Shown piece by piece: positions 55,091 to 58,224 of a DNA stretch of 64,000 bases. The translations under genes were made by a program, and so were the position numbers. Below the pieces are notes generated by a model. The model saw nothing but the letters and a program-made list of their open reading frames with translations. It was not told the DNA's origin and did no database searches. The stretch is from a sulfur-oxidizing endosymbiont of Gigantopelta aegis (GTDB taxonomy: Bacteria > Pseudomonadota > Gammaproteobacteria > GRL18). Where the stretch lies: assembly GCF_016097415.1 (NCBI RefSeq), contig NZ_JAEHGE010000001.1, positions 1,909,157-1,973,156 on the forward strand, written 5' to 3'. Positions within the stretch are counted from its first letter, which is position 1, and every line of letters starts with the position of its first letter.

Positions 55091-55724
55091 TAAGATCGTC
55101 TGTTTTCTCTTTTTTATATCAATCGCTTGCGTGATTAAGGTATCTTGTAACGGTAATGGGTTATCCAATGATTGTTGTACAATTTTCCAGTATTTTGGAT
55201 TTTGGGAACGCCATTGCTGAACACGCTGGACATTGACAGTGCCACAGAAGTAGTTTTTATTTTGAGGTTTTTGCAGCCATTTTTTTTTTTGACTGGCGGC
55301 CTTACTGGCTTGTCGACACTCAGGTGCTGAGCAGAATTTCTGACGACCTTTAGAGCGGGGGTTGGGTTTGAAAAAAGTGTGGCAGTGCAAGCACTTGCAA
55401 GTTCCTGAACGTGGCATTGAGTATTTCCTCTACCTGAGATAGTTGAGGAAAAGCAAGAAAAAGTACAGCAAAGAAAAGAACGGAAGAAGACAGAAGAAAA
55501 TCCAAGTAGAACAAAAGATTTTTTTTAAAAATTGGGAAGAAAAAGCAGAAGAAGAAATGACATTTTCAAATGGCCAAGATTAGGACACTTTCAGGAGACC
55601 CCTGACAGTCCATAATGCTTTTGCAGTTTGGGATTTAAAGATTTCCATTGTTCAGATAAGATATCTTAGATTCAACTCATAAGTGCAACACTATTTGGTT
55701 GTATTTGTGATATTTGCTGGTTTA

Positions 55725-55796
55725 TCGCTGGCTCATGAAATTCCCGGGGTGGCCGAGCGTAGCGATGGCCACCCCGGGAATTTCATGAGCCAGCGA
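55725..55796. promoter_or_regulatory. Perfect 30-bp hairpin in the IS30 leader
   Basis: Arms 55725-55754 and 55767-55796 are exact reverse complements over 30 bp (core CATGAAATTCCCGGGGTGGC), with a 12-base loop GAGCGTAGCGAT. It is much more GC-rich than its surroundings. About 15 bases later comes an A-rich stretch (T-rich on the other strand), so on the minus strand it could terminate transcription. On the plus strand it could block read-through into the transposase gene. It might also be an independent palindrome inserted in the IS. Confidence 0.85.
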
Positions 55797-55912
55797 CGTG
55801 CCTGACGGCGCTACTAAAAAAAAATCATCATAAGTACAGTAATGATTTGCTCGAAAAAATGGCCAATTGCTTGTAAAATCGGCCATTTTCTCCTGCAAGA
55901 GTAAAGTGACTT

Positions 55913-56857
55913 ATGAGAACTTACAAGCAATTGACACAAGAACAAAGATACTACATTTCGACTGAGATTAAAAATGGCATTTCCCAGTCTAAAATTGCTC
56001 AGGCGATTGAGGTGAGTAAATCTACTATATGCCGTGAAATTAAACGCAACGCTGGTTTACGTGGCTATCGATTTAAGCAAGCTCAAGAAAAAGCCGTTAA
56101 GCGTCGCTACAATGCTTCTAAAGCAATTAAAATGACGGATGACATGATTGCCCTTATTGATGAAAAGCTTTCACAGCACCAGTGGAGTCCTGAACAGATA
56201 TCAGGTTGGTTACTGAATGACAAAATGCTACTTCTTAGCCATGAACGTATTTATCAACACATATGGGATGATAAGAAGCAAGGTGGTGATTTACATCAGT
56301 ATTTAAGGCGTCAGGGAAAGAAATACCAAAAGCGTGGTAGTAACGGTAAAAGCAGTCGAGGACAAATAATTAATCGAATTTCCATTGATGACCGTCCTAA
56401 GATTGTTGATGATAAACGTCGTGTTGGTGACTGGGAAATTGATACAGTGATCGGTAAAGGACACAGTGGTGCTCTGGTCACGATTGTAGAAAGAAAAACG
56501 CTTTACACATTAGTAGCAAGAGTGAATGGCAAACAGGCTGATTGGGTGACACAAGCAACAATACAATTGCTTAAACCCTTTAAAGACAGGCTTCATAGTA
56601 TTACCGCAGACAATGGCAAAGAGTTTGCTTATCATGAGCAGGTAAGCAAAGCTCTTGATACAGCATTTTATTTTGCCCACCCTTATTCTTCATGGGAGCG
56701 AGGGTTAAATGAAAATACTAATGGACTGATTAGACAATATTTTCCTAAAGATACAGACTTTAAAGAAGTGACTGATAAAGAGGTTTACAACATGATGGAA
56801 AACTTAATAATAGACCTAGAAAGGCACTCGGCTTTCAAACACCATTCCAGGCAATGA
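55913..56857 (+). CDS. IS30-family transposase
   Basis: The 314-residue protein has an N-terminal HTH (YKQLTQEQRYYISTEIKNGI, SQSKIAQAIEVSKSTICREI) and the IS30 catalytic domain. The domain includes SPEQISGWL, HERIYQHIW and GRGQIINRISI-type sequence. The acidic triad is in GDWEIDTVIGKGHSG, SITADNGKEFAYHE, and WERGLNENTNGLIRQYFPK. The frame is complete with a normal start. Confidence 0.95.
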   Translation: MRTYKQLTQEQRYYISTEIKNGISQSKIAQAIEVSKSTICREIKRNAGLRGYRFKQAQEKAVKRRYNASKAIKMTDDMIALIDEKLSQHQWSPEQISGWLLNDKMLLLSHERIYQHIWDDKKQGGDLHQYLRRQGKKYQKRGSNGKSSRGQIINRISIDDRPKIVDDKRRVGDWEIDTVIGKGHSGALVTIVERKTLYTLVARVNGKQADWVTQATIQLLKPFKDRLHSITADNGKEFAYHEQVSKALDTAFYFAHPYSSWERGLNENTNGLIRQYFPKDTDFKEVTDKEVYNMMENLIIDLERHSAFKHHSRQ

Positions 56858-56919
56858 AAAAATCATTTGCAAGAACTGGAATTTCCTGCGTTGCACTTCA
56901 GAGTTGAATCCGCGTATTT

Positions 56920-58224
56920 TTAAACATGATAGCTTTCCTCTTTTACTGTATTAGGCGTCTTTTTTATTTCTTCAAGCAGATATATTGCCAGCACTAATAT
57001 TGCTAGATTTTTTACTATAGGTGCAAAGGGGTGTAACCAGAACATTGGGATTGTGATGGTCAAAATAATACTATAAATGAGCATCACAGTAATTTGTCCA
57101 TAGAGACTCCATTGCATTAGGCGTGCATTCCATAAACCCAGCCATAACAATATACCCAGCACCATGTCAGCCAGAGCGGCTATAATGATGATGCTATCCC
57201 CCCAATTTCCTTTGATGCCCATGAGTAACATTAATTCACGGCTAAGCTCAATATTTATGATTGAACTCAGTCCAGAAATTATCCATATAATTCCTAGCAC
57301 TAGACTATTGATATAAAATAATTTTTTTAATTGTATACGCTTGCTAAAGCAGGGGGTGGCTTTGTGTGCCAGCAATGATTCTGATGCGCTCTGGGGCAGA
57401 GAATTTTTTAGTGTACTTAATTTTTTATTTGAATAATCAGCCAGCATTGCGGTTCTGGATTGATTAAATGCACCAATGGATAATGTTGGAAAATAATAAA
57501 ATAAGGTATTAATTAATTGGCGTGGTATGATAAAAAAATGACCCTTATTTAAGCCCATCCAATGGCGAAGTTTATTAAGTAGTTCCTCCATCGTTTCAGG
57601 TTTAGCAATTAATATTGCGGTTAAACTCTTTTCTGGCCAATGACCAATTTTTTGTTCTATGAACTCGGTTAATTGATAAATACTGATAAGAGGGATTTTT
57701 TCTTGTCGATCAAATACCAGTGGAATGATGTATAAGCTGGCAAGTAAGCTGAGTTGCTGTGTGGTTCTTCCTTGTTCGCCAAGCACAATACCGGGATATA
57801 AAACAATGTTGGGCAATTCATGTGAGAGTAAATATTGATCCGCATTGCGTTTGCTTTGTAAAAATTCGCTGACAGGGCTCTCTTGCTCTGCACCAATGGC
57901 AGAAATTTGAATGACTTTAATTTTACATTCTCTGCAAGCCTCGAAGAGTCGCTTGGGACCAAGATCATGGACTTGGGAAAAGCTATCTTTATTGGCTGGG
58001 TTCTGACTCACCTGCTGGTAAATCCCCACGGTGTTGATCACCAGATCGATATTCTGTAATTGCTGCAACCATACTGCTTGGCTTTGTTGGAAGCTAAATT
58101 GTTGCCAGTTTATGCCAGAGATTTTATGCCGACTACTGCCAATGAGATGGTGGCCTGATTGACGTAGAGCTTGATAGAGGTGTTGGCCAATAAAGCCACT
58201 TACACCAACGATTAATATATTCAT
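56920..58224 (-). CDS. NAD(P)-binding SDR-like protein fused to a DoxX-like membrane domain
   Basis: The protein has about 434 residues from ATG 58224 (MNILIVGVSGFIGQHLYQAL). Residues 1-290 form an atypical SDR: Rossmann GVSGFIGQ, LVINTVGIYQQ, VIQISAIGAE, and NIVLYPGIVLGEQG. The C-terminal 130 residues have four hydrophobic segments (INSLVLGIIWIISGLSSIIN, GDSIIIIAALADMVLGILLW, TVMLIYSIILTI, VKNLAILVLAIYLLEE) like DoxX/DUF4499 proteins. It probably acts on a lipid or quinone-like substrate at the membrane. The next gene upstream (DUF2269) is 10 bp away and membrane-bound, so the two likely form one complex. Confidence 0.85.
   Translation of the reverse strand: MNILIVGVSGFIGQHLYQALRQSGHHLIGSSRHKISGINWQQFSFQQSQAVWLQQLQNIDLVINTVGIYQQVSQNPANKDSFSQVHDLGPKRLFEACRECKIKVIQISAIGAEQESPVSEFLQSKRNADQYLLSHELPNIVLYPGIVLGEQGRTTQQLSLLASLYIIPLVFDRQEKIPLISIYQLTEFIEQKIGHWPEKSLTAILIAKPETMEELLNKLRHWMGLNKGHFFIIPRQLINTLFYYFPTLSIGAFNQSRTAMLADYSNKKLSTLKNSLPQSASESLLAHKATPCFSKRIQLKKLFYINSLVLGIIWIISGLSSIINIELSRELMLLMGIKGNWGDSIIIIAALADMVLGILLWLGLWNARLMQWSLYGQITVMLIYSIILTITIPMFWLHPFAPIVKNLAILVLAIYLLEEIKKTPNTVKEESYHV

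Follow-up and report, generated by a model that had tools for sequence, protein, structure and literature searches.

An IS30-family element and its hairpin

Within the window, as we call the whole 64-kb stretch of endosymbiont DNA that was analysed, lies an insertion sequence (IS) that carries a long perfect hairpin between its left end and its transposase gene (Table 1). The element belongs to the IS30 family, with an IS30-type DDE transposase, terminal inverted repeats and 3-bp target repeats. In this family the terminal inverted repeats are about 20-30 bp long and the target repeats 2-3 bp. Here the terminal repeats have a 21-bp core that matches at 90%, and reach 25 bp once the outer 4 bases, recognised by copy comparison, are included. 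The transposase matches the NCBIfam profile NF033563 (transpos_IS30) with 298 bits against a cut-off of 80; in Pfam it lies above the gathering score for HTH_38 and below it for rve. The transposase family, the terminal inverted repeats and the short target repeats are all shared with IS30 of E. coli, in which the target repeat is 2 bp (PMC9333248).

The limits of the window copy were set by comparison with the other complete copies in the same genome, because the 16 complete copies share their ends while the bases outside these ends vary. The element is accordingly slightly longer than the inverted repeat that was detected. Matching 3-bp target repeats flank 14 of the 16, L002 and L010 being without one. 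The open frame of the transposase has 315 codons in the window copy against 332 in the five other own-genome copies listed, and is shorter because of a frameshift near its 3′ end. Small deletions in the transposase gene occur in several copies, e.g. the window copy, L003, L012 and L016, and others keep the longer frame.

The initial annotation described a 72-bp palindrome with mismatch-free 30-bp arms in the leader of an IS30. Its coordinates proved exact, the arms are 100% complementary over 30 nt each on either side of a 12-nt loop, and the transposase match bears out the placement in an IS30-family element. This is the longest perfect stem with a loop of 3-20 nt in the window, the runner-up reaching 11 bp; in 20 dinucleotide-shuffled versions of the window the maximum was 13 bp. 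As RNA, positions 55700-55820 have a predicted fold of -76.8 kcal/mol (z -11.3), which none of 200 shuffles equalled. In 55600-57000 no match to an Rfam family attains the gathering score. The eight matches with E-values up to 1 in that interval are all microRNA models lying on the hairpin, below their gathering scores, and were set aside as chance matches to a long perfect stem.

Table 1. Features of the IS30-family element and its left end (positions in the window)
Feature	Position	Strand	Remarks
IS30-family insertion sequence, 1250 bp	55665-56914	+	ends CTTAGATTCAAC...GTTGAATCCGCG, common to 16 complete own-genome copies
Target repeats TAT, 3 bp	55662-55664 and 56915-56917		flank the window copy on both sides
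Left terminal inverted repeat (IRL)	55665-55689	+	pairs with 56890-56914
Right terminal inverted repeat (IRR)	56890-56914	-	inverted-repeat search and copy comparison
Left-end extension with fresh IRL and hairpin	55665-55826	+	absent from canonical relatives; inner border approximate
Inverted partial IR copy just inside IRL	55698-55710	-	part of subterminal stem 55677-55710
Perfect hairpin, 72 bp	55725-55796	none	arms 55725-55754 and 55767-55796; loop 55755-55766, GAGCGTAGCGAT
Small stem GTGCC-TGAC-GGCGC	55798-55811	none	directly 3′ of the hairpin; RNA fold
Ancestral IRL relic, ATCATAAGTACAG	55827-55839	+	aligns with CTCATAAGTACAG of canonical G002 copies; canonical distance from start codon
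Local leader hairpin before start codon	55847-55898	none	82% complementary
Leader-ORF stem, leader arm	55861-55869	-	13-bp form here 55864-55876
Leader-ORF stem, ORF arm (codons 6-8)	55928-55936	-	13-bp form 55921-55933
IS30-family transposase gene	55913-56857	+	profile match; frameshifted near 3′ end in the window copy

Left ends in the genome and among relatives

A DNA search of the organism's own genome (11 contigs) returned 43 matches, which include the 16 complete copies, several partial ones and hairpin arms that match each other. Nineteen copies hold the left end (L001-L016, L018, L019 and L021), and every one of them has the hairpin; L017, which is cut inside the hairpin and is without the left end, is not counted among them. 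The initial annotation had raised two prospects, that the hairpin might be absent from the other copies of this IS, or that it might recur outside IS30 as an independent repeat. Neither was borne out in the own genome, where both DNA and motif searches found no hairpin outside the IS. The top of the hairpin, GAGCGNAGCGATGGCC, has 19 mismatch-free occurrences there, all in those same copies, and TCGCTGGCTCATGA occurs without mismatch in IS copies only.

The arms are perfect over 30 bp in 11 of the 19 copies. Four others, at four sites, share a form with the same mismatch in one arm, one has two substitutions, two have deletions, and one has a substitution plus a one-base insertion close to the foot of the stem. 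Counted as columns and not as events, variation across the 19 copies affects 15 positions of the 72-bp hairpin, 14 of the 34 nt that follow and 21 of the other 1144 (a single deletion makes up 11 of the 21), which places 29 of the 50 variable columns in the hairpin and the adjoining 34 nt. The hairpin is a mutation hot spot.

When 24 genomes of the order were searched for the left end, six matched, the own genome included, and three states of the left end can be told apart within the genus. The canonical state is that of G002 (contig C34), in which IRL lies 97 nt ahead of the start codon; the layout of C152 is the same. An extended state without the long hairpin is found in G010 (C104) and twice in G008 (C22 and C189), the latter two being short forms that end with their contigs in a draft assembly, with the rest of each element out of view. 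The extended state with the long hairpin is that of the own genome and of G008 C176. The locus on C12 of G002 retains a stretch resembling the left arm ahead of an internal deletion, and the collapsed left end of G008 is present at two sites whose flanks are different.

The G008 C176 hairpin allows a comparison of the arms between species. Relative to the window there are four changes in the left arm and five in the right, and five pairs differ. Four of these pairs have changed on both sides, each to a new Watson-Crick pair (one is a flip from A-T to T-A), and the fifth is left as G.U. With four changes in one arm and five in the other, four coinciding pair changes have a chance of 1.8e-4 before the identity of the bases is counted.

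More distant relatives with a placed IRL differ in having neither the left-end extension of about 150 bp nor the 72-bp palindrome. Their IRL was placed 91-107 nt before the start codon at 17 of 23 loci (one of the 17, L165, repeats L066), against 248 nt in the window element; the loci outside the 17 are L067, L099 and L117, which match elsewhere, L074 and L077, where part of the repeat was caught, and L166. For the scoring of upstream stems 58 of 80 relative loci were taken, some with less than 280 nt available, and none of the 57 that could be scored has a stem comparable to the 30-bp hairpin, the longest being a perfect one of 18 bp in L092. In a plasmid collection 124 records match the IS, none covering 80% of it, and among the 20 matches listed none starts before query base 381 or reaches the left end. 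The left-arm pattern has no match in viral contigs. Among the papers listed by a literature search none treats such hairpins, judged by title and the start of the abstract (one, PMC10117815, concerns rep-PCR repeats of mycobacteria), and no paper combines the terms 'IS30 family', hairpin, transposase, inverted repeat and leader.

A stem between the leader and the transposase start

Closer to the gene, 13 nt of the leader can pair with transposase codons 3-7, and a core of nine pairs recurs in relatives, joining leader positions of about -55 to -45 with the Q-L-T codons (6-8 here). We examined this core in an alignment of 31 sequences, with 30 relatives picked by hand, i.e. 279 cells of sequence and pair. 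On the + strand 250 of the 279 cells are paired (89.6%), and on the - strand 276 (98.9%). G.U accounts for 26 cells on the - strand and for none on the + strand; of the 29 cells unpaired on the + strand, 26 are C.A or A.C and read as G.U on the - strand, and three are of other kinds. Five of the nine pairs have changed on both sides, a number reached by 2 of 500 shuffles, and neither the paired percentage nor the covariation score was reached by any of the 500. Further pair types are above the shuffles on the - strand (0/500 reach the value) and not on the + strand (434/500). When the partner is slid by 1-3 columns pairing falls to at most 42% on the + strand and at most 51% on the - strand, a control that favours the stem, which was chosen from the same sequences. 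Counted by 14 clusters at 75% identity, the wobble kind goes to the - strand by 14 to 0. RNAalifold recovered six of the nine pairs when the stem was not supplied.

A wider test took in 109 loci, of which 85 had a match to the start region and 16 were dropped (5 duplicates, 4 with short leaders and 7 without the motif). At least seven of the nine pairs are Watson-Crick in 27 of 29 alignment rows and in 30 of 40 other rows, the latter with some overlap (L192 comes from the own genome, L165 repeats the aligned L066 and several are near copies of each other); reversed leaders reach this in 3 and 2 rows, respectively. The other ten of the 40 relatives outside the alignment fall below seven. In these 40 rows the wobbles are 37 of the - kind and 3 of the + kind, alongside 27 plain mismatches. 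At 63 loci, scoring each leader with its own ORF gave a higher value than shuffled partners in every one of 20000 trials, whichever strand was used; the margin is clearer on the - strand (21.6 against 14.3) than on the + strand (17.6 against 12.3). Five copies from the genus, compared over 14 pairs, add seven cells of the - wobble kind, two plain mismatches and none of the + kind.

A leader-ORF stem that acts in the mRNA was considered and dropped, since each of the 26 C.A cells reads as G.U on the opposite strand. Because the wobble pairs of this covarying stem fit the antisense strand, they suggest an antisense RNA at the transposase start in IS30 relatives. Antisense control has been reported for IS10, IS30 and IS200 (PMC8450116, PMC9330008), and a structure or an antisense RNA at the transposase gene is a feature common to IS10, IS30, IS200, ISPpu9 and, by this reading, the present element. 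The putative antisense RNA would cover the start of the gene, as is reported for IS10 (PMC9330008). In IS30, by contrast, the antisense promoter is described at the centre of the element, at bases 730-760 of 1200, and its antisense RNA lies mid-element, whereas the antisense-strand stem proposed here lies at the 5′ start of the gene (PMC9330008).

The leader also hosts a local hairpin that shares bases with the leader-ORF stem. Here and in relatives it lies just ahead of the start codon, and its left arm is often A-rich and its right arm T-rich. A best-stem search, run without a control, found local leader stems in 31 of 31 rows; they have no strand preference, with 70 G.U against 49 C.A in that uncontrolled run. 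This hairpin could be a terminator or an attenuator.

Origin, upkeep and possible roles of the hairpin

The long hairpin belongs to a left-end extension of about 150 bp, as shown by comparison with the canonical IRL, which stands about 100 nt from the start codon, against 248 nt here, and by a relic of it at the inner border of the added DNA. The extension brought both the hairpin and a new IRL, added outside the old one, which was left behind as an internal relic. IS30 reportedly inserts beside its own IRs or at hot spots that are nearly palindromic (PMC9333248), and by analogy insertion of this type is a plausible explanation for a second end that adjoins a palindrome. Two fused IS ends form free-standing palindromes of about 55 bp in G021 (L054, L228) and G008 (L160). 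They resemble the outermost 45 bp of the window element, and are apparently tiny non-autonomous relatives of this IS. As for the order of the long hairpin and the short form, which we infer from three or four species, deletion from the long hairpin would be the simpler route to the short form. The creation of the hairpin from the short form by template switching, with the left arm as a reverse-complement copy of ATGAGCCAGCGA, was rejected, as the short form offers no source for about 45 nt of the stem.

Once in place, the palindrome is probably kept matched by the transfer of changes from one arm to its partner. Template switching at a hairpin formed in the course of replication is the most probable mechanism, to judge from the paired changes and the local hypermutability. 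Perfect stems have been reported to arise through template switching, in which one arm serves as template for its partner, and perhaps to be repaired in this way, although the authors call the evidence for upkeep circumstantial (PMC8794818). The cases described there were deduced for RNA genes by ancestral reconstruction, whereas the present one concerns a palindrome in an IS, compared between two species. A single event or a few events might account for the four paired changes, as might stepwise selection, only G008, with one copy, offering a full hairpin for comparison. Pairing that is kept across a species split is also expected from selection for a structure, and a recent burst alone may account for the 11 perfect own copies. 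The proposal of the initial annotation that the palindrome is young fits the complete own-genome copies, which are 98-99% alike, and fits poorly with G008, which has the same hairpin with compensated changes.

The IS seems not to need its hairpin, because mismatched forms exist at four sites and the collapsed left end at two; the simplest inference is that these forms have themselves transposed. Our reading is that the hairpin is self-correcting but expendable. We give a probability of roughly 0.55 to the explanation as a whole, namely that in one IS30-family lineage the hairpin forms an integral part of the left end and moves with the element, as a captured palindrome that is kept matched mainly by template switching, is non-essential and is at most a weak transcription shield.

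What such a hairpin might do can be outlined from its sequence and position. A transcript that enters the IS from the left would fold into a 30-bp duplex before it reaches the transposase gene, and so long a duplex in read-through RNA would be expected to serve as an RNase III substrate. The duplex could thus be cut, or could slow the polymerase, and either would damp read-through expression. Passive damping of this kind is probably the likeliest physical effect, and weak shielding against outside transcription is possible.

A stronger version makes the hairpin a selected regulatory element, with the duplex forming in the 5′ read-through mRNA or in an outward antisense transcript and protecting the transposase gene as an RNase III site or a roadblock. 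It agrees with the position of the hairpin between IRL and the gene in all 19 copies and with the compensated arm changes between the own genome (G000) and G008, and there is a parallel in ISPpu9, where structure in the 5′-UTR is reported to limit translation of the transposase (PMC8450116). The mismatched form in four copies and the collapsed form at two sites, each at separate places, argue against it, as do the 57 scored relatives, with no longer stem than that of L092, and we regard it as doubtful. An equally tentative view would unite the two structures: the left end might be an RNA-control cassette, in which an undescribed antisense RNA, with a conserved stem over the transposase start codon and the ribosome site, is common to distant IS30 relatives, and this lineage has added outward a self-repairing 30-bp hairpin, in the path of outward antisense and inward read-through transcripts.

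We think it unlikely that the hairpin is a host palindromic repeat, REP-like and with GAGCGNAGCGA in its loop, that the IS captured as a passenger without a role. The 11-mer GAGCGNAGCGA does have 32 matches in the genome, against 4 for a reversed control; 19 of them are the IS copies and 13 lie elsewhere. Among 12 of these 13 that were viewed, four (L194, L195, L201 and L203) lie in or beside other stem-loops, and GTAG precedes the stem at L194 and L195. Palindromes tagged with GTAG have been described in every division of the proteobacteria (PMC3733652), and GTAG/CGTC REPs resemble the hairpin in being palindromic, and dispersed in so far as a few own-genome hairpins have the same loop core. 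Known REP stems, however, are given as 5-13 bp (PMC3733652), against 30 bp here, and the own genome holds the hairpin inside IS copies only and not as free-standing dispersed copies. No solo copy of an arm was found; across 16 genomes of the genus TCGCTGGCTCATGA occurs once without mismatch outside the IS, in G015, where the second arm is absent from the 160 nt inspected. Among 369 genomes of the class, a set with few members of the genus, the hairpin top turned up outside the own genome in three, each time with two mismatches, which we take as chance. The suggestion in the initial annotation that a palindromic repeat of separate origin had taken the IS as its site is unsupported here as regards a dispersed family, although a few other own-genome hairpins share the loop motif GAGCGTAGCGA. 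Two stretches on contig C1 of the own genome (L209 and L219, at about 2329549 and 3824887), identical where displayed, have CRISPR-like repeats (TGTCGCGCCTTCACGGGCGCGTGGATTGAAAC) around a spacer that holds GAGCGTAGCGA.

An intrinsic transcription terminator, also put forward at the outset, is highly improbable, stable and GC-rich though the stem is. It is followed by CGTGCCTGACGGCGCTACTAAAAAAAA on the + strand and by TAAACCAGCAAATATC on the - strand, with a T-run in neither, and a terminator scan lists none at this place (the scan allows loops of 3-8 nt only, and the hairpin loop has 12).

The element illustrates how an IS can come by a new functional end while its former end persists as a relic. 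The start-site stem, whose wobbles fit the antisense strand, points to possible antisense control of IS30-type transposases. The hairpin itself offers a natural example of a long, perfect palindrome which, though prone to mutation and apparently expendable, stays matched across two species, and it is useful for separating template-switch repair from selection.
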